A DNA stretch of 32,448 bases from a virus, in the IMG/VR virus record IMGVR_UViG_3300043409_001724, positions 1 through 32,448 of that record. One strand, 5' to 3'. Made by a program: the position numbers and the translations under genes. How positions within the stretch are numbered: position 1 is the first letter of the stretch; every line of letters starts with the position of its first letter. Below are positions 15,645 through 30,137 of this stretch, in pieces. The notes beneath the pieces are model-generated. The model did no database searches and had not been told where the DNA came from. It was given only the letters and a program-made list of their open reading frames with translations.

Positions 15645-15883
15645 ATAATATCGTATTGATCGCCCGACAACGTTTGTTCTTGGTAAATATTTCTATATGA
15701 ATAACCTAGTTCGTCTAGGTAGTTGAATATGTCTTTTTCTGTTTTTCCCTCTCTTAGTAATGTGCCTTTATTTATTTCGGCCAAAAGAACTGGGCTGAAT
15801 GCACCTCCAATATTTTTAAACGTTATGCCGTAAAAGCCTCCAGTTCGGCTTTTATTCCCGCTGTAATATTTCCCCAGCTCCAA
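15629..15883 (-). pseudogene. C-terminal remnant of an FkbM-type methyltransferase
   Basis: An open frame of 84 codons has no ATG; its first possible start is TTG at 15883, inside the preceding glycosyltransferase. It carries AEINKGTLLREGKTEKDIF, then NYLDELGYSYRNIYQEQ and finally DQYDIICEKK. From memory, this closely resembles the extreme C-terminus of FkbM-family SAM-dependent methyltransferases (EIN.G.L...G.....IF..L...GY.YRNIYPEQ...YDI.C). The SAM-binding N-terminal two-thirds are missing. The fragment lies in the -1 frame relative to the glycosyltransferase, which stops at 15823. It is best read as what remains after a deletion fused the two genes. A functional frameshift fusion is a less likely alternative, since no slip heptamer is visible. 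Confidence 0.6.
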
Positions 15884-16536
15884 TTCTGCTTTAAATAATC
15901 ATTTCCGCACCCTTCTTTTTCCGTATCCTTGAAACGATAATTTTCTTTTTCGTTTAATTCTGCATAAGCACCAAGATAATTAAACTCTGAGAAGTGCCTG
16001 CCGGGCTGCCTCATAACATAGTCGGATATGTTGCAATCGTGCAGTATATTAATGTACAGACTGGCTGATTTTAATGTCTTTGACAAAAACACAAACGGTA
16101 ATCTTCTCATATACTCATACTCAAGATTAGCGCCTATTGTCTTCTCGGTTATTTCTTTCCAGCAAATAGCGTCTCCTACGTGTTCGTAAACCGTTTTGTA
16201 AACTATCGGCAATTCTCCCTCAAATAACTCAACTGATAAATCTACAGGGCTTTTAAAGCAGCAGTCCGAGTCTACGAAAACTATCGCCTCTGCATCTGTG
16301 TACTTGTAGGCCTGTAACTTGCTTACCTGTTGACCTAGGTAATCTTCTTTATATACCGGACAAGTAACTACCTTTTCGGCTGTTAAATTCCACGAATCAA
16401 GTAGTCTTTTCTGAGGCTCTGGAATGCAAATCACAATTTGTCTGTAACCAGTAACGTACTTATGAATTGATTTTAGGCAGTACCTCAACCAGCCTAAATC
16501 TCTTTCGTAAGTTCTAATAAATATATCTGTTGTCAT
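15823..16536 (-). CDS. Glycosyltransferase 3, GT-A type with DSD motif
   Basis: This 237-aa protein starts TTDIFIRTYERDLGWLRYCLKSI, the nucleotide-sugar-binding N-terminus of small GT-A enzymes. It continues with GQQVSKLQAYKYTDAEAIVFVDSDCCF, where D89-S90-D91 is the metal-binding DxD. The KLQA...D.i.fvDSD pattern matches the DUF6492-like family seen in phages and capsule loci. The acceptor may be lipopolysaccharide, another host glycan or a virion protein. It is the last intact member of a three-gene series on the virion-gene strand. The methyltransferase remnant begins in its last 20 codons. Confidence 0.75.
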   Translation of the reverse strand: MTTDIFIRTYERDLGWLRYCLKSIHKYVTGYRQIVICIPEPQKRLLDSWNLTAEKVVTCPVYKEDYLGQQVSKLQAYKYTDAEAIVFVDSDCCFKSPVDLSVELFEGELPIVYKTVYEHVGDAICWKEITEKTIGANLEYEYMRRLPFVFLSKTLKSASLYINILHDCNISDYVMRQPGRHFSEFNYLGAYAELNEKENYRFKDTEKEGCGNDYLKQNWSWGNITAGIKAELEAFTA

Positions 16537-16547
16537 TTTTTTTTTGT

Positions 16548-17258
16548 TTACTTAAAATTTATTCTTATTTGCTTGTATACATACTCTGATATTTGCTCTG
16601 GTGATCTTAGTTGGTACATTCGCTTATCCAGTATAGCCGTTTCAGCTCTGAATATTTCAGAGGTTCTTTTCCAGTCCTCATAAGAATACTGTATCTGGTG
16701 CGTCTTATGGAATAAGTAGGGCTCATTAAGTCTAAATATGGTTACTTTTGAAAGCAGGCATATGTAAGGAATCCAAAAATCCCAATGACACTGACCAAGG
16801 CAAAGTATTGATTGAGGAAATATGCTTAACCATTTTTTATTAATGAAAAACCCGTCAAAACCCTGATCGTATACTTTTGAATTATCCGTATTATCATTGA
16901 AGTCGTACCGATTCATTACTATTACCCCCTTGCCAGATATTCGTTTTATCTCACTTGTAAAACTTAGCTTATCCTCTATGATAATATCTGAATTTATTAC
17001 CAGTGCGTATTCTTCTCCTGAATCTTTTATGTAGTCTATTATAGCCGATATGGTAACGTATGGCCTCTTGAATAGCACTTCGTTTGTTCGGTTGGTTGGG
17101 ATAAAATTTACATACTTTGAAAACTCCAAAAGTGATTTTATTTCCTCCTTACTGTTTAAGCTTATTACCTTATACCCGTGATCAATCCAGCTCTTTACGG
17201 CTCTTAGTTGGCTTTCAAAGTTCTTGTGATTTGGCGATATAGTAGTAATAGCGATCAT
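16548..17258 (-). CDS. Glycosyltransferase 2, GT-A-like
   Basis: This 236-aa protein begins MIAITTISPNHKNFESQLRAVKSW and has YALVINSDIII, where N89-S90-D91 is the likely metal-site motif with the first Asp replaced by Asn. Later come YDFNDNTDNSKVYDQGFDGFFI and GQCHWDFWIPY, typical substrate-site segments of sugar transferases. The ATG overlaps the stop of glycosyltransferase 1 (ATGA). The altered DxD leaves activity uncertain, but NSD variants are known in related phage proteins. Its function is likely in the same glycan pathway as its neighbours. Confidence 0.68.
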   Translation of the reverse strand: MIAITTISPNHKNFESQLRAVKSWIDHGYKVISLNSKEEIKSLLEFSKYVNFIPTNRTNEVLFKRPYVTISAIIDYIKDSGEEYALVINSDIIIEDKLSFTSEIKRISGKGVIVMNRYDFNDNTDNSKVYDQGFDGFFINKKWLSIFPQSILCLGQCHWDFWIPYICLLSKVTIFRLNEPYLFHKTHQIQYSYEDWKRTSEIFRAETAILDKRMYQLRSPEQISEYVYKQIRINFK

Positions 17259-18100
17259 TTTTGGACGATAATTTTATTTTTATAAAGGTTCTGAGATTTA
17301 AATAAATGATCCCGTTTACCTTCTCTTAGGATAGAGGATAGGTGTCTGTTATATAAGTCGTGAGCGTATGGTCTTACTAAATTTTGTCCTCCAAAATGAG
17401 ACAGTATATAGTATTCGCTTAGTATTTTTTTTACATCTTCTACTTTATCAGGAAAAAAAACTGGCCGAATTCTCGCGTCTGGCACTATATCAAGCTGTGA
17501 CATGGTACCAGAATAATATAGCTCGTCTGGGTGATTCTTTTTAAAGCCCCACATTAACAAGTACTTATTTTTATCAAGCCTGTTATTGTAGTTTTGCTTT
17601 AATTTAGAAAAAAACTTTTTTGAGATTTTAGACTTGTTAAAATAAATAATAGAAGTTTGAAGGCCGCATAGTATAGCGTCTTTTTTCAATTTAAAATGAT
17701 CCCATATAGTGTCATTGGTAGCCCACTCACTATATGTTATCTCATCTTCTCTCTTGCCATAGTCGATCACTTGAGCGTATACGTTATGATCTTCCAGTTC
17801 TTTAAATAGAGGGGAAATGTCTTTTAAACAAACTCCATCAACATCTACGTAGATGGTTTTTTCAAAAGGGGAAAGTTCGAAAAGTTTTATTTTATTTAAT
17901 CCCGGATCGTTGCTGTCAAAATCAAATAACTCTACCTTATCGAATACAGAGGTGTCAATTTGATCTAATCCGATCCCATCCGAAAATAAATATACTGGTA
18001 AGTCATGGCAATAATACTTAATACTGTATGCCATATTAAAAGCATACTTAGCATACGTAGCGCTGCCAAAACTTACCAGTAAGATTCCTTTCGCTATCAC
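17255..18100 (-). CDS. Glycosyltransferase 1, GT8-like
   Basis: This 281-aa protein opens with GILLVSFGSATYAKYAFNMAYSIKYYCHDLPVYLFSDG and has FEKTIYVDVDGVC with D86-V87-D88 as DxD. That is the layout of GT8-like retaining transferases (glycogenin or LPS galactosyltransferase type). HPDELYYSGTMSQLDIVPD and YYILSHFGGQNLV follow. The start is GTG at 18100, overlapping the stop of the 181-aa gene upstream as TAGTG. It is therefore translated together with a putative virion gene. Its substrate is not determined by sequence. Confidence 0.72.
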   Translation of the reverse strand: MIAKGILLVSFGSATYAKYAFNMAYSIKYYCHDLPVYLFSDGIGLDQIDTSVFDKVELFDFDSNDPGLNKIKLFELSPFEKTIYVDVDGVCLKDISPLFKELEDHNVYAQVIDYGKREDEITYSEWATNDTIWDHFKLKKDAILCGLQTSIIYFNKSKISKKFFSKLKQNYNNRLDKNKYLLMWGFKKNHPDELYYSGTMSQLDIVPDARIRPVFFPDKVEDVKKILSEYYILSHFGGQNLVRPYAHDLYNRHLSSILREGKRDHLFKSQNLYKNKIIVQK

Positions 18101-18766: not shown

Positions 18767-18797
18767 TTTAGATTGTAACAATAAGGCATTAGATTTG
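18767..18797 (+). promoter_or_regulatory. Plus-strand promoter of the outer-membrane protein gene
   Basis: TAGATTTG at 18790-18797 is an exact -7 TAnnTTTG, with TTTA (18767-18770) 19 bp upstream as the -33. The start would be at about 18803, so the GTG at 18797 is excluded and the ATG at 18815 is favoured, with a leader of only about 12 nt. Confidence 0.65.
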
Positions 18798-18814
18798 TGA
18801 TAAGAAGAATAAAT

Positions 18815-19444
18815 ATGAAGAAGATTTTATTTTTGATAGCTGTGGTACTAGGTACTAGAGCTACATTTGCACAAAATAAATTTAATGCTGGAATCTCTAT
18901 TGGAGGCGGCATTACTGGTATTAAAAATGACTTAATGTATAAAAATGGAGGATCTTTAAGGCTGGCCCTTATCGCTGAATATTCGTTTACAAGAAACATA
19001 TCTGTTCTCCTGAATCCGTCCTTCAGCTATTTTACTACAAAATATTCTGATAAGTTTTCTGTTCCTGGAGGCAAGGGCTACGATCTAGTAAATATAAATA
19101 GGTTTAATACTATAGCTACTCCATTATGCTTTAAGATGAAGGCGTCTGGAGGGAAGGCAAAGCCTTATTATTCCATTGGACTTGGGCCTTCATTTTTGGT
19201 AAGTCATAAAAATATTGAAACCATAGGCGGAAGCCTTTCCAAAAACACTTATTATTCTGCTTCAAACACTGGCTACAAAAACTTATACTGGACCGTAAAT
19301 AATTATTTTGGCATAGAACTACAAGGCGATAAAATCACCCCTTACATAGAATTTGTAACCATCCACTCTTTCACGCCAACAAGCGAAAGCTATCACTTTG
19401 ACGGACTGAATTCTTATACCTTAAGTTTAGGTTTTAAGTTCTAG
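18815..19444 (+). CDS. Outer-membrane beta-barrel protein (moron-like)
   Basis: This is the only sizeable plus-strand gene in the late region. It encodes 209 aa with a Sec signal peptide (MKKILFLIAVVLGTRATFA, then Gln20). Alternating hydrophobic strands and aromatic girdles follow, and the protein ends in the strand YTLSLGFKF with a terminal Phe, the usual barrel-assembly signal. It resembles small outer-membrane porin or PorT-like barrels of Bacteroidota. It has its own promoter and lies inside the leftward operon, the pattern of a lysogenic-conversion (moron) gene. It may alter the host surface, for example to block superinfection. Its TAG stop and the stop of the converging gene both lie within the palindrome CTAG (19441-19444). 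Confidence 0.78.
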   Translation: MKKILFLIAVVLGTRATFAQNKFNAGISIGGGITGIKNDLMYKNGGSLRLALIAEYSFTRNISVLLNPSFSYFTTKYSDKFSVPGGKGYDLVNINRFNTIATPLCFKMKASGGKAKPYYSIGLGPSFLVSHKNIETIGGSLSKNTYYSASNTGYKNLYWTVNNYFGIELQGDKITPYIEFVTIHSFTPTSESYHFDGLNSYTLSLGFKF

Positions 19445-21328: not shown

Positions 21329-23591
21329 AAGCTTTCAATAGTTTAAATTCTGCTATCCCTCCTACTGGCTTATATCTTATATCGACAATAAAGCCTTTCA
21401 TGAAATCGGTATCGGTTTCGGACACTTCGATGCATCCTTTTGGGTTATTTTTAAGCATTAAATACTGTGAGAATGTTAACGGGTATCTAAAGTCTATATA
21501 TTCTGGTATCCAAATAGGCGTAACATCAGCCTGTGCAACGGTTACGTCCTGGTTTTCGGTTAATGGATTATTTTGAAAGTTATCAGGACATGAATCGTTA
21601 GTATATTTTGTAGAGACAAAGAAATTGCCATCACCGTAAACAAACTTAATAGCACGCCCTGCATACTTAATCAATGACGATGCTATTACATTCATGTGAT
21701 TTAGCAAGTTTCTCGCTGGACTTCTTCTAATGTTATATGCTGTTTCGGGCGATTTAAAGCCTGTGGCCTGAGAAAAGTTTTCGTTTTTCTCAGCGATGTT
21801 TAATTGATTTGGATTGCCAGCACTATCCACTCCTCTGGCTAAACATATAATAAAATTATCGTCATCATACTCTGTGTCCACCGTACTAACACCCTTTCTA
21901 CGCGTTAGTTCTATAGAGTACATAGAAGCGACCATTGGAGACACTATATTTAGGCGTGATTCGATTGATTTTATTCCAGTGTTATACTCTCTCTTAGTAT
22001 TGAATTCGTCAAGTCCGTTTACATTCGATGTTTCCCATTTATCGTACCCCGTATAGACATCGGATATATAATACTCTTTTGCAATAGATGTTTTTATATC
22101 CGACACAAAATCAAATCTTAGTATAACATCTTGGCTATAGAAGCTTTGTTTTTTCTCGATCGAGATAAGATACTCTCCTCCTATTTTCTCAAAACCTAAA
22201 CCAACATTATAACATGCATTAATAGTGCTGTAAAAGTCTTTCATCGAGCAAAAATACGGAGCGTCCGATATAGCAAATCCCCTTATATGTTTTCCATTTA
22301 AAGATCCAAGGAATGATCCGCACCCATTGCCTGTATAAGATACTGGCGCACTATTTTTCCTGCCTAACAGTTCACTCCTGAAGCAGTCATTCTTAGAAGT
22401 GATCCGCTGTGCAATGGCGGCACCGAGTTCGTGTATCTTGAAGATAGAGGCGCTTGAAGGATCTGTAGTACTTCTCTGTACAAATGACAATTCAAAATTT
22501 GTTGGCGTAAAACCTATAAACTCAAATTTTCCCGGATTTGTAACATTGCCGGCGATATCAGTAAAATAAAAACATAAAAATACCTTATGTCCATTTTGTA
22601 TTGTTGCCGATAAGCTACCGACCGCATTTATTGAAACGTTCTCGGTTTCATTTGGGTCTAAAGTCAGCCCGTTTATATTTTGCAAAGTTGTAGGAAAAGG
22701 AGAGTAAGAGAACTGTGTCCCTCCGACCTGGAGCAGAAAATAGAAGTTTACAGGAGTGGAAGAAAGCGTATTCCTTACCTGTAAATTGCCAACTATATTG
22801 TAGTCTATAGTAAATGTGATATCGCTACCAGTTGTATTCTCATAAATAGGCCCCGTGTTTTCATATCCCTTCGCGTCTCCTCCAGACAATACCGACCACA
22901 TATAACTTTGCTCCGTACCTATTGCCCCTCCTATATCATCCTTCTCAACGAGCAGCGGAAGTTCTATATTTATACCGTCAGCCGGAAACACAGTAAACAA
23001 AAATTCGGTATCATTGAAATACTGGAAGGTAGTTTCTAATAATATTTCTTTACTATGAAGTGTTATTGCGCTTGGGAAATCGACAATAGGATTTAGTGCC
23101 ACCCCGTCTAAGCTTTCATTCCTTGTTACCTCAACCTTGGTATCAAATCTATTTAATACATTTGAAATAAAGTCCGACTGAATCAAACTGACAGATGTAC
23201 TTTCACTTGTTTTTGAATAGTTCTTAAACTCTAAAACTCCTTCAAAAATATTCTCAAATACTGGAGCTGCCGAGCCACTAACCATTGACCCATAATCATC
23301 AGAATAGTCGATAGAATAATCAGTCGAGTCGCCTGATTGGCTACCTGTTGAGCATGATACGGAAATGGTTAACGACACTATAGCGTCAGGTCCTAACTCG
23401 TCAAATGCTTTGTCAATATATTCTTTTCCCGAACCGCATTTAAACTCTATTGGAGCCATCGCCTCATAGAACACCCCGTGATATTCAAGGCTTCTTTTTA
23501 GCATGAGCTCAATATCCTTCCACCCTACAGGCTCATTAGGCAATATGAACGATCCGTACTGTTCACTATTTAATACAAATCTAAATATCAT
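21318..23591 (-). CDS. Large tail-tip / baseplate protein (757 aa)
   Basis: This long protein follows the tape measure gene (4-nt ATGA overlap), where phages encode distal-tail and tip proteins. The N-terminus has EPVGWKDIELMLKRSLEYHGVFYEAM, a segment frequent in Bacteroidota phage tail proteins. A Ser/Asp/Tyr-rich stretch (DSTDYSIDYSDDYGS, about residues 88-102) is followed by many beta-rich segments. There is no signal peptide or membrane helix. A specific fold cannot be named from sequence alone. It probably forms the tail tip and carries the smaller tip proteins encoded next. Confidence in a structural role is high, in detail low. Confidence 0.68.
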   Translation of the reverse strand: MIFRFVLNSEQYGSFILPNEPVGWKDIELMLKRSLEYHGVFYEAMAPIEFKCGSGKEYIDKAFDELGPDAIVSLTISVSCSTGSQSGDSTDYSIDYSDDYGSMVSGSAAPVFENIFEGVLEFKNYSKTSESTSVSLIQSDFISNVLNRFDTKVEVTRNESLDGVALNPIVDFPSAITLHSKEILLETTFQYFNDTEFLFTVFPADGINIELPLLVEKDDIGGAIGTEQSYMWSVLSGGDAKGYENTGPIYENTTGSDITFTIDYNIVGNLQVRNTLSSTPVNFYFLLQVGGTQFSYSPFPTTLQNINGLTLDPNETENVSINAVGSLSATIQNGHKVFLCFYFTDIAGNVTNPGKFEFIGFTPTNFELSFVQRSTTDPSSASIFKIHELGAAIAQRITSKNDCFRSELLGRKNSAPVSYTGNGCGSFLGSLNGKHIRGFAISDAPYFCSMKDFYSTINACYNVGLGFEKIGGEYLISIEKKQSFYSQDVILRFDFVSDIKTSIAKEYYISDVYTGYDKWETSNVNGLDEFNTKREYNTGIKSIESRLNIVSPMVASMYSIELTRRKGVSTVDTEYDDDNFIICLARGVDSAGNPNQLNIAEKNENFSQATGFKSPETAYNIRRSPARNLLNHMNVIASSLIKYAGRAIKFVYGDGNFFVSTKYTNDSCPDNFQNNPLTENQDVTVAQADVTPIWIPEYIDFRYPLTFSQYLMLKNNPKGCIEVSETDTDFMKGFIVDIRYKPVGGIAEFKLLKAYVD

Positions 23592-25942
23592 TTGAATGAA
23601 CTATAGTAAGACTGTTTATTTATTTCTTTTGCAAAGTCCGATAAATTAGAGACCTTAACAGTACTATTTTTTTTAATCAAACGGTCTGTATTGCTAAGAT
23701 CTATTTGATTACCTGATTTAGACAACATTCGTTTCTCTTTAGCCTCTCTCCTTGTTTTTGCAAGCCTATTATTCTCGATCTCTATTTTTCGCAGCGCTGG
23801 AGATATATAAGACTTTTCTATGTAGTCTTCTTCTCTACCTTCGTTCATAGCTTTTAATAGCCCCATATTACTGCTGGTGGCCCTAGCCGTCACTACTGAT
23901 TCGCCCCTCGATAAGAACGCAGGGATACTATCACTCGTCCCTGTGCCAGGGCCCTTCAGTCCTACCACTCCATCTTTAAATTTTGGTACAGGCTTAGACG
24001 AGATTAGTGCCGCTTGAGCAAGTCCAGCGGCCGCAGCAAGAGCAGCGCCAAGCGCGCCACCAATAGGACCAAGCTGTGCAAATGATTTAGCTATGGCAAG
24101 CGCTGTATCTATAGCAACCTGTGTAAGTGCTGCTTTTTTATCGGCTTGGAATTTCTTTGTTTTTATCTCTGCCTCCTTAGACGCTTGCTGTCTGTCGATC
24201 GCTTCTTTCCTTACGGCAAACTGCTCCTCTGTGATAAGTCCAGAGTCCAGTTGTTTTTGGAGGCTTGATATTTTTGATTCTGTTTGCTCTTGTAGGGCCT
24301 CTGATTCTTCGTCGAGTTCTGCCTGTCTTTTCTCGGCTGAAATATCTGCAAATCCCTTCGCCAGATCTTCGGCTATCTGAAATCCAGCTTCTCTGATCTG
24401 TCCTATTTTTTGCTGCTGCTGTTTATTTAGTTCTTCCTCTTCCTTTAATCTTTGTTCAACACGGGCCAGAGTTTCTTTAGCCGCTTCTTCATCTGCTTTT
24501 TTTCTAAGATCCCGCGCTTCTTTCTCTTTTGCAGCGGCCTCCTTGTTGCTTTTTTCAAGATTTGCAAGTTGAAGATCAAGTATTGCCTTGTCTATATCAA
24601 CGATATCGCGGCCGTTCTCAACTAATAATTCTTTCTGCCGGTTTAATCCATCTAATTTTATCAGATACAAAGACTCTTCATACTCTTCCGCATTTACAAC
24701 GCCATTTAATAGTGCTTCTTTTTGTACATTCTCTCTTAATACTTCTTCCTGCCCTATTCGTTTAATTTGGTTCTGAAATATCTCCTCTTCTTTTGTATCG
24801 CGCCTATTCTGTATTCTCTCTAGTAATGCATCTGATGCTCCTTGAAGTTCTATAATAGCATTGAACGCATCTTTTTCCTCTTGTGCTAAATCGTCATTTA
24901 TAGACCTTCTGGCTTCACCATTTTTTATATCTTGGTTAATGGAATCGGACTCACGCTTATTTCTTTCTTGAATTAATTTAAGCCTAGCGCTCGCATTTGA
25001 TAATTCAATCGCCAGGTTTCTTTTTTCTAGTTTTGCCGCCTTGTCCAAGTTTGCCAAGCTTATTTCGTCTTGGGCGGTTTTGCTTTTTGAGGCAATAATA
25101 AGCCTCTGTATTTCATTGTTATTTTCCTTAATAACGCTTGAATCGTCACGGATCTTATCTTGTAACGCATCCATCCTTGACTCCCATTCAAATGCTGCTT
25201 GCGCTGCCGCTTGTGCCTTAGCCACGAAATCTCCAGTCTTGCTTGTTATATCTGTTATTCCTGTTGTTAATTGAACAGTGGAGTCTATAAATCTTTTCCC
25301 AGCAGCCACAAAATCACCTCCTACGGCAAGGTTAAGGGCCTCAAAAAAAGTGAACACCGCCTTTCCTCTATTTACAATATTCTCTACAAGTATATTTCCA
25401 AGGTCTGCAACACCTTCTTTAAAATTTGCAAAGCTTTCGAAAGCCTTAAATGTAGCCTCTCCTATCCCTACCATAGCACCAGAGACAAGGTCTAGTGTAG
25501 CTCCAAGTGCAGACATGACACCTTGTAGCCTTGTCGCTCCTTCGTCGGTTCGCTTGAAATATGCTATAAGTCCTACTATCGCAGCAACAAGCAAAGGTAT
25601 ACCAGTGGAAAGCATTGCTACGCGTAAAATTTGAAATCCAGCTGAAGAAGCTTTAGCAGCACCACCAAGCCCAGTAACAGCAGAACCAAGTTCAGCCACT
25701 TGTTTTATCTGCCCGGCAAAGGGGAGATTATTTGCAAGCTCTGTAAATTTACTTGATAGATTAGTGACAGAGCCAGATGTTTTATTAATTTCGCCAGATG
25801 TTTTTTTTGACTCAGCAGTTATAGAGTTCATAGATTTTTTACCTATGCTCTCAGCATTCCGTAACTCCTTCTCAAAACCTTTTAGTTCCGCTTCTGCCTG
25901 TTGTAGCTGAATGTCATATTCTACTACTATCTTATCTGCCAT
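23588..25942 (-). CDS. Tape measure protein
   Basis: This 784-aa protein has the expected composition. The N-terminal helical coiled region is MADKIVVEYDIQLQQAEAEL. A hydrophobic segment at about residues 104-129 (ILRVAMLSTGIPLLVAAIVG) is of the sort found in most tape measures. A long Glu/Lys/Gln-rich coiled coil runs from about 255 to 620, and an Ala-rich segment (LGAALAAAAGLAQAAL) lies near 640. It sets tail length (about 120 nm by the usual 0.15 nm per residue) and helps DNA entry. It follows the frameshifted chaperone, whose -1 frame ends inside its first codons, the classic order of siphophage tails. Confidence 0.92.
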   Translation of the reverse strand: MADKIVVEYDIQLQQAEAELKGFEKELRNAESIGKKSMNSITAESKKTSGEINKTSGSVTNLSSKFTELANNLPFAGQIKQVAELGSAVTGLGGAAKASSAGFQILRVAMLSTGIPLLVAAIVGLIAYFKRTDEGATRLQGVMSALGATLDLVSGAMVGIGEATFKAFESFANFKEGVADLGNILVENIVNRGKAVFTFFEALNLAVGGDFVAAGKRFIDSTVQLTTGITDITSKTGDFVAKAQAAAQAAFEWESRMDALQDKIRDDSSVIKENNNEIQRLIIASKSKTAQDEISLANLDKAAKLEKRNLAIELSNASARLKLIQERNKRESDSINQDIKNGEARRSINDDLAQEEKDAFNAIIELQGASDALLERIQNRRDTKEEEIFQNQIKRIGQEEVLRENVQKEALLNGVVNAEEYEESLYLIKLDGLNRQKELLVENGRDIVDIDKAILDLQLANLEKSNKEAAAKEKEARDLRKKADEEAAKETLARVEQRLKEEEELNKQQQQKIGQIREAGFQIAEDLAKGFADISAEKRQAELDEESEALQEQTESKISSLQKQLDSGLITEEQFAVRKEAIDRQQASKEAEIKTKKFQADKKAALTQVAIDTALAIAKSFAQLGPIGGALGAALAAAAGLAQAALISSKPVPKFKDGVVGLKGPGTGTSDSIPAFLSRGESVVTARATSSNMGLLKAMNEGREEDYIEKSYISPALRKIEIENNRLAKTRREAKEKRMLSKSGNQIDLSNTDRLIKKNSTVKVSNLSDFAKEINKQSYYSSFK

Positions 25943-26228
25943 TTGCGACCTTTTTTATACTTTTAGTTATAATATACTTCATCAAGCTTAAATACTCTAT
26001 TGTACTAAACTTTTTTATTTTGTCGTATTCGATAGCGCTCCCTTCGGCCATGTCCCAGTATTCCACTTCATCTGCCTCTATACTTTTGACAATACCTACC
26101 CTGTGGAATATTTCTCCATGTACATTTTCAGCGCCTTCAATTTCAATTCCGATTCCCTCAAATATTCGTTGAACTCGTTCTCGGTAGTCCCGACAAATGG
26201 AATATAATCGGTTAACCCCGCTGAGTAA
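25932..26228 (-). CDS. T-like extension of the tail-assembly chaperone, read by -1 frameshift
   Basis: This open frame without an ATG near its 5' end continues for 98 codons from the slip site and stops inside the tape measure start (TAA 25932-25934, ATG 25940-25942). Its protein looks genuine: EGIGIEIEGAENVHGEIFHRV, then IVKSIEADEVEYWDMAEG and a basic helical end. The -1 frame has a stop about 30 nt upstream of the slip site, so it opens just in time. Slipping at 26228-26234 joins it to the first 160 residues of the upstream gene, giving about 258 aa. This is the lambda G-GT arrangement in position, direction and order. It also explains the apparent gap 25943-26095. Confidence 0.8.
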   Translation of the reverse strand, partial: LLSGVNRLYSICRDYRERVQRIFEGIGIEIEGAENVHGEIFHRVGIVKSIEADEVEYWDMAEGSAIEYDKIKKFSTIEYLSLMKYIITKSIKKVANGR

Positions 26229-26707
26229 AAAAAATCGTACAGTCCTCCTTGACTGTCGATTTTAAATTGCTCAATTTTTTCTTTGTGAACTACAGAATCA
26301 ACTTCTATTAAACTCTCGTCTTCCCTAATATACATTAATGCAGCGCAGGAGAAGAGCGTATCTGGATCAACAAATACGCCTAGCCTTGACTCTAACTCTG
26401 TTATAAAAAAACCGATTTTTGCTATATCTGGTTTCTTACCTCCATTAATAGAATCTTTCATGGATGAAATAAAAAGCTTTATTGAGTCTTCGGAAATGCC
26501 AGCCTTGATAAGCATAAGCATTTTTTGAACCTCCTTGAACCTATTTATTGGCATATCAAGGTCACGTGAATAACGATAATACACCCTACCGCTTGAGTCA
26601 ACAAAAACCTTTTCCATCTTTTCAAAACCATTACCTTTTGTTTGTTCAGAATGGTAATATTTCAAGAATTGTCTTTTGAATATGCGGTATAGTAACCTTG
26701 TAAACAT
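26096..26707 (-). CDS. Tail-assembly chaperone G-like (203 aa, zero frame)
   Basis: The start is ATG at 26707, overlapping the previous stop as TAATG. The alternative ATG (MEKVFVDSSGRVYYRYSRDLDMP) begins 30 codons downstream and may be the true start. The protein is helical and of mixed charge, with RFKEVQKMLMLIKAGISEDSIKLFISSMKD and LESRLGVFVDPDTLFSCAALMYI. It has no signal peptide. Its position directly before the tape measure, together with the frameshift element near its end, identifies it as the short form of the tail chaperone pair (lambda gpG role). The longer G-T form would be made in small amounts. Confidence 0.8.
   Translation of the reverse strand: MFTRLLYRIFKRQFLKYYHSEQTKGNGFEKMEKVFVDSSGRVYYRYSRDLDMPINRFKEVQKMLMLIKAGISEDSIKLFISSMKDSINGGKKPDIAKIGFFITELESRLGVFVDPDTLFSCAALMYIREDESLIEVDSVVHKEKIEQFKIDSQGGLYDFFYSAGLTDYIPFVGTTENEFNEYLRESELKLKALKMYMEKYSTG
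26228..26256 (-). promoter_or_regulatory. Programmed -1 frameshift signal
   Basis: On the minus strand the zero-frame codons GAT TTT TTT TAC contain the slip heptamer T TTT TTT (26228-26234). Upstream, AGGAGG (26244-26249) lies 9 nt before it, within the loop and stem of a 6-bp hairpin (ACAGTC-AAGGAG-GACTGT, 26239-26256). A Shine-Dalgarno-like site about 10 nt upstream is a known stimulator in E. coli dnaX. Bacteroidota ribosomes rarely use such sites for initiation, so its presence here is notable. Confidence 0.75.
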
Positions 26708-29423: not shown

Positions 29424-30137
29424 CTATTTAGCCTTGTCTTTCGGAATGTTCCAGACAAGATTCTCCTCTTCAATATGAATACAATAAATTCCAGTCGGAA
29501 AATCAGAACGAACCCATTTAGCAAGGAAATCAACCTTGCCTTTTCGTTCAACCCTGAAAATAATACCTTCAGGGTTCCCTTCACTCTCAACTCCTTGTGT
29601 CTTTAAGTTCAAGACAGGCAATAGTTTGCTTACTGTTATTGGTTCACCTTCACTTAATAATCGTGGCATATTTAAGCCGTATTTGCCTGTAATTTGTCTC
29701 AAATCAGCTTGTAGTATCCTTTCGTTTTTAGGGGTAAAATAATCGAAAAATAAAATCGGGTCGCTTTCGATTTTATATTTAAGCCCATGTGCTTGTAAGA
29801 GCCATTCGCCTGTTATTCTTTCACCTTCGTTAAGCATTTCGGAAAATAGTTTCTCACGCCTATAGACCCAGTCACTAAAAAAGTGGTGGTGTTTATGCCG
29901 GCTCGTTTTTGCTTCATAGCCTGAACGAGTCAACGCGAATATTTTCCCATTCCTTTTGCCCACGCCAATATTTGAGCCATCGTACTTTTCATGGGCAAAA
30001 ATAACGTCGTGCTTGTCTCGTTTCTTTTCAGTCAATATACCCTCCATGCCTTTTTCAACATAATGGTCGCCTTCGCCTAGTTTTGAGCTTGATAAGTGGG
30101 GGATTGAGCCGTAATTTTTCCTACCTAGTGGTCTCAT
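29424..30137 (-). CDS. RNA ligase, Rnl2-like
   Basis: This 237-aa protein has the nucleotidyltransferase motifs of RNA ligases in order. Motif I is HEKYDGSN with the adenylated Lys at 51 (K-Y-D-G). ITGEWLLQAHGL (108-119) and ILFFDYF (128-134) cover the motif III region. Motif IV is EGIIFRV (Glu 190) and motif V is FLAKWVR (Lys 207). There is no C-terminal dimer domain of T4 Rnl2, so it is a compact form. It seals RNA nicks with ATP, possibly countering host tRNA cleavage; no polynucleotide kinase-phosphatase partner is visible in the window. It may have its own promoter (30171-30199). Confidence 0.85.
   Translation of the reverse strand: MRPLGRKNYGSIPHLSSSKLGEGDHYVEKGMEGILTEKKRDKHDVIFAHEKYDGSNIGVGKRNGKIFALTRSGYEAKTSRHKHHHFFSDWVYRREKLFSEMLNEGERITGEWLLQAHGLKYKIESDPILFFDYFTPKNERILQADLRQITGKYGLNMPRLLSEGEPITVSKLLPVLNLKTQGVESEGNPEGIIFRVERKGKVDFLAKWVRSDFPTGIYCIHIEEENLVWNIPKDKAK

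Follow-up and report, generated by a model that had tools for sequence, protein, structure and literature searches.

It is probable that the gene preceding the tape measure gene in the analysed window, a stretch of viral DNA of 32,448 nucleotides, produces two forms of a tail assembly chaperone through a programmed -1 ribosomal frameshift, and that a Shine-Dalgarno (SD)-like sequence in the loop of an upstream hairpin sets the rate of the shift in the clade of the window. We propose that most ribosomes would read the codons GAT TTT TTT TAC without a shift and produce a protein of 203 amino acids. In a minority of them, the two phenylalanine tRNAs on T TTT TTT would slip back by one base, which would lead to a 258-amino-acid form with a second domain. 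Two product forms would be encoded ahead of the tape measure, as is the case for gpG and gpGT of lambda. In the window's clade, further called the T8 clade, the looped SD-like sequence that precedes the slip site by 8-10 nt is the element most likely to set the shift rate. Its pairing with the anti-SD of the 16S rRNA would draw the ribosome backwards and so promote the shift, and the hairpin would compete with this pairing. Both the stimulation by the SD and the role of the hairpin are predicted from the sequence. The features are listed in Table 1.

Table 1. Positions of the features of the frameshifted gene and its surroundings in the window
Feature	Position	Strand	Description
0-frame gene, putative tail assembly chaperone	26096..26707	-	ATG start, 203 aa; homologues found
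Hairpin ACAGTC / AAGGAG loop / GACTGT	26239..26256	-	SD in loop; covariation (12 sequences), synonymous constraint
SD-like AGGAGG	26244..26249	-	9 nt (ACTGTACGA) to slip
T8 run	26227..26234	-	slip heptamer T TTT TTT at 26234-26228; codons GAT TTT TTT TAC
-1 open frame	25932..26261	-	98 codons past slip, second domain of the 258-aa fusion
Tape measure gene, 784 aa, after the -1 ORF	23588..25942	-	PHROG tape-measure families, best E 3.4e-11

Slip site, second frame and homologues

The 0-frame gene is located directly upstream of the tape measure gene. An earlier note on this DNA had claimed a complete programmed -1 frameshift at T TTT TTT (26228-26234) within this gene, with a -1 frame that opens about 30 nt before the slip site, continues for 98 codons and ends within the start of the tape measure gene. 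All of this is seen in the window: the heptamer is present on the minus strand as a part of the T8 run, and the -1 frame opens 27 nt ahead of it and overlaps the tape measure start by 11 nt. The frame had also been described as free of start codons. This is correct up to position +168, where the first GTG is found; the first ATG follows at +183, and start codons do exist from +168 onwards. The heptamer T_TTT_TTT occurs in phase just three times among the 8,241 codons of the window genes.

No close relatives of the window protein were found by a pattern scan or by tblastn of phage records. Relatives of the terminase and tape measure genes gave access to homologues, and profiles built from those gene copies then yielded prophage copies in bacterial genomes and further viral contigs. 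The terminase profile retrieved three bacterial loci, all of which belong to the Bacteroidota by their titles (Bacteroidetes or Segetibacter aerophilus). Annotated phages of Bacteroides and Tenacibaculum in which the tape measure matched partially had no comparable gene in their feature tables. One degenerate weak match (L032) was set aside. An in-phase T TTT TT[T/C] with a -1 ORF is present at the homologous position in 44 of the 44 distinct intact homologues, although the identity to the window protein goes down to about 16-20%. The run consists of exactly nine T in 27 of them, eight in 12, seven in two, T6C in two and ten in one. The -1 tails past the slip site comprise 62-122 codons, and 87-103 in all but two of those measured; L039, the slip site of which was judged by eye, is absent from this range. 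The slip codons F159 and F160 are two of the six invariant columns in an alignment of 14 sequences. In two groups with T9, 15 of 16 members have TTG as the third codon, while TTG accounts for about 20% of leucine codons. The T8 clade has 12 members, which are 38-85% identical (median 42%) and are known from metagenomic contigs alone, their host being a deduced one. Since the heptamer is rare in the window genes and recurs in every intact homologue, the slip site is beyond chance. The claim of a programmed frameshift is thereby supported: among the intact homologues, neither one without the slip site nor a conserved start codon of the second frame's own was found.

The scan for slip sites also returned a gene in a Bacteroidota MAG (L013, 3960-5407), which was rejected as a homologue because it is unrelated. 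This gene of unknown family is split at GAT TTT TTT TTG (T9), is followed by a -1 ORF of 183 codons and gave no PADLOC match. It may be a further case of recoding or phase variation, or simply be broken.

In the seven measurable pairs of the T8 clade, the dN/dS ratio of the -1 ORF beyond the overlap is 0.10-0.32, which shows that the -1 frame is under purifying selection. A tail profile built leaving out the clade of the window gave the tails of the window, L002 and L010 higher scores than any of 200 shuffles per tail. By this measure, homology of the -1 tails extends across clades; the profile fails to recognise some of those in the most distant group. Synonymous conservation of the 0 frame goes up within the overlap, as is expected from dual coding.

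The naming of the gene as a tail chaperone is supported in part. Position and architecture agree with it, but the candidate proteins gave no significant match to known tail-chaperone families in Pfam, PHROGs or fold searches. The chaperone-named BFVD rows are weak (E 0.1-1.6), and further PDB structure comparison gave general helical matches alone, with Z of 5.3 and below. The putative function is suggested by the position, the overlap and the frameshift. A tape measure or tape-measure-like ORF comes next in most, not all, of the sufficiently long loci. In L035 and L036, the ORF after the frameshifted gene has about 365 amino acids, which is short for a tape measure; it possibly belongs to a very short tail or a tail-like particle.

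Several other genes of the window were noticed. The gene at 18797-19444 on the plus strand, located amid minus-strand genes, has a signal-peptide-like start, resembles an outer-membrane barrel by eye and gave no Pfam match. Three adjacent genes lie on the minus strand at 15823-18100; the one at 17255-18100 weakly matches glycosyltransferase family 8 (E 0.00035), and the other two are without a Pfam match. An RNA ligase (PF09414, E 2e-18) is encoded near the terminase genes, at 29424-30137 on the minus strand.

The SD-like element and its hairpin

At a pairing threshold of -6 kcal/mol or better, an SD is seen at the start of 0 of 31 window genes and 0 of 44 clade genes; random positions pass this threshold in about 9-10% of cases. 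Such starts fit Bacteroidota translation and a putative Bacteroidota host. The ribosomes of this phylum sequester their anti-SD, and those lacking bS21 expose it (PMC9976891). The remark of the earlier note that Bacteroidota ribosomes hide the anti-SD agrees with that publication and with the SD-less starts. The prfB gene of F. johnsoniae carries a perfect AGGAGG for recoding, and the prfB frameshift is kept in 72% of 726 Bacteroidia genomes (PMC8710568). Since prfB recoding uses AGGAGG there, the use of an SD in Bacteroidota recoding has a precedent, and internal SD use of this kind is already published for prfB (PMC8710568).

The AGGAGG motif occurs 14 times on the coding strand of the window and by itself would be unremarkable. 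An SD-like sequence is, however, present in 12 of 12 T8-clade members, with pairing energies of -7.9 to -12.4 kcal/mol and a distance of 8-10 nt from the slip site. In E. coli, -1 frameshifting is stimulated by an internal SD located 8-11 nt ahead of the slip (PMC6321510).

The AGGAGG had been reported to lie within a 6-bp hairpin. The stem, formed by ACAGTC (26256-26251) and GACTGT (26244-26239), is indeed perfect, but the loop contains five of the six SD bases, so that the SD is mainly looped rather than held in the stem. The 45 nt upstream of the slip site in the window fold with an MFE of -10.2 kcal/mol (z -3.2). In the alignment of the 12 T8-clade sequences, 84.5% of the stem cells are paired, compared with 17-48% in slid versions, and the covariation score of the stem is higher than that of all 500 shuffles. 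One pair, formed by two third codon positions, is C-G in nine sequences, U-A in three and broken in none, which needs at least two double changes on the tree. The inner stem pairs vary more between sequences, and L010, L064 and L066 have a weak hairpin. Synonymous conservation is close to the expected level along most of the gene (observed/expected about 1.0) and reaches a ratio of 1.68 at codons -8 to 0; in the T8 clade, the peak sets in abruptly at the 5' arm of the hairpin. Codon choice over this stretch in the T8 clade is biased as well: serine is encoded by AGY in 12 of 12 cases (31% usage), leucine by the rare CTR codons CTG and CTA in 10 of 12 (20% usage) and tyrosine by TAC in 11 of 11 (39% usage), these counts sharing ancestry and not being independent trials.

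Since a ribosome positioned on the slip site contains the 3' arm of the stem, the hairpin and the SD pairing would be mutually exclusive. The hairpin may therefore mask the SD or attenuate the shift, by analogy to upstream hairpins, the refolding of which is reported to attenuate frameshifting (PMC6321510). Downstream of the slip site, no signal of a stimulatory structure was detected, either over 30 homologues (mean z 0.37 for 60 nt and 0.03 for 100 nt) or in the window itself (z -0.5 and -1.0, respectively).

The AGGAGG could also be merely the look of Gly-Gly codons, in which case the frameshift would be real and the SD and the hairpin idle. When synonymous codons were randomised, the strength of the SD was not significant in any single clade member (p 0.09-0.51). 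This is the main weakness of the SD reading, and it arises because Gly-Gly codons already look like an SD. Furthermore, the T9 relatives manage without an SD: with the exception of L041, they mostly lack an SD-like element, and their pairing energies scatter with no trend. An idle SD was the reading drawn from the first homologues, SD-less T9 members, and it was reversed by the larger T8 clade. The residues under the SD vary in this clade (QGG, TGG, MGG, EGG, KGG, KEG, KDG), and the SD-like sequence persists even where they are KEG or KDG. The peak of synonymous conservation sits at the SD, the stem covaries, and the leucine codons are rare ones. We consider an idle element unlikely, although it retains appreciable weight. 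The element described in the earlier note is thus upheld for the T8 clade by its presence in all members, covariation and synonymous constraint, but not for the wider family.

A functional SD in the hairpin suggests a further, rather improbable, idea: it could tie the ratio of the tail-chaperone forms to the accessibility of the host anti-SD, which is set by bS21 in Bacteroidota. If this is true, the phage would read the state of the ribosome through the frameshift; the T9 relatives slip without an SD.

Ribosomal and transcriptional slippage

The same fusion would be obtained if the RNA polymerase slipped on the T-run and some mRNAs gained an extra U. The run is exactly T9 in 27 of 44 members, in three codon phases, and the T9 members are mostly without an SD. 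In many bacterial genomes, A/T runs are avoided from a length of nine upwards because they are prone to slippage (PMC1088944). The T9 majority reaches this length, which makes transcriptional slippage a serious competitor there. Shorter runs are found in the window and its clade, with T8 in 12 of 12 members, and in four relatives with T6C or T7. The T6C and T7 runs, seen among relatives of the clade in L052 (T6C) and in L063 and L068 (T7), are too short for known polymerase slippage, L036 (T6C) and L035 (T9) share a bacterial family, and the upstream SD and hairpin have no obvious role in polymerase slippage. The family resembles cases of A9/T9 transcriptional slippage in the exact T9 of most wider-family members, and differs from them in the T8 of the window, the T6C and T7 of relatives and the in-phase heptamer that is always kept. 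Since this heptamer alone is common to all members, ribosomal slippage is favoured, and transcriptional slippage is, on the whole, considered improbable.

Internal initiation, in which the AGGAGG would start a separate -1-frame protein, is highly improbable. A strong SD-like sequence does lie upstream of the -1 frame, but no -1-frame ATG, GTG or TTG is found at a usable spacing, the first candidate starts, found between +27 and +252, show no conservation among the homologues, and the starts of the present phages are without an SD. An assembly error or a pseudogene, with the split caused by an indel in an error-prone homopolymer, is refuted by the homologues, as 44 independently assembled records share this split and the -1 frame is under purifying selection.

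The frameshift among known systems

The T-run sites appear to represent a previously undescribed family of U-run tail-chaperone frameshifts in Bacteroidota phages and prophages; no earlier report was found in open-licence papers, nor was one found for a phage -1 site whose SD is in a hairpin. The T8 module with its hairpin-borne SD and the Bacteroidota T-run family appear to be new versions of known systems, namely the lambda G-GT frameshift and SD-stimulated recoding as in dnaX and in Flavobacterium prfB. Pfam and PHROGs miss the frameshifted gene. Bacteroidota ribosomes ignore the SD at start codons, which makes its use in elongation the question for the T8 clade; the clade offers a natural test of such use by anti-SD-sequestering ribosomes beyond prfB. 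The members with T6C, T7, T8, T9 and T10 form a natural series to separate ribosomal from polymerase slippage.

The G-GT logic of lambda, which had been proposed for the window, is borne out by the gene order, the slip, the start-poor overlapping -1 ORF and the selection on the -1 frame. Both systems have a gene right before the tape measure with a -1 slip near its 3' end, a long fusion with a second domain and a -1 ORF without its own start (PMC5009743). Unlike in lambda, the slip is T TTT TT[T/C] inside a T-run, the proteins match no known chaperone family, the preceding gene does not encode a recognised major tail protein, and the T8 clade bears the SD and the hairpin. With dnaX of E. coli, the T8 clade shares an SD-like sequence 8-11 nt before a slippery heptamer (spacing from PMC6321510). 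The heptamer is a U-run here and A AAA AAG in dnaX; the SD here is in the loop of an upstream hairpin, with no downstream hairpin detected, and the start codons of the present phages and their putative host are without an SD. The prfB gene of Bacteroidia (PMC8710568), as seen in F. johnsoniae, also has a perfect internal AGGAGG in an anti-SD-sequestering phylum, and a similar use in recoding is proposed here. The prfB shift goes +1 at a stop codon, and its SD lies near the P site; the proposed shift in the window goes -1 at a T-run, which is separated from the SD by 9 nt.
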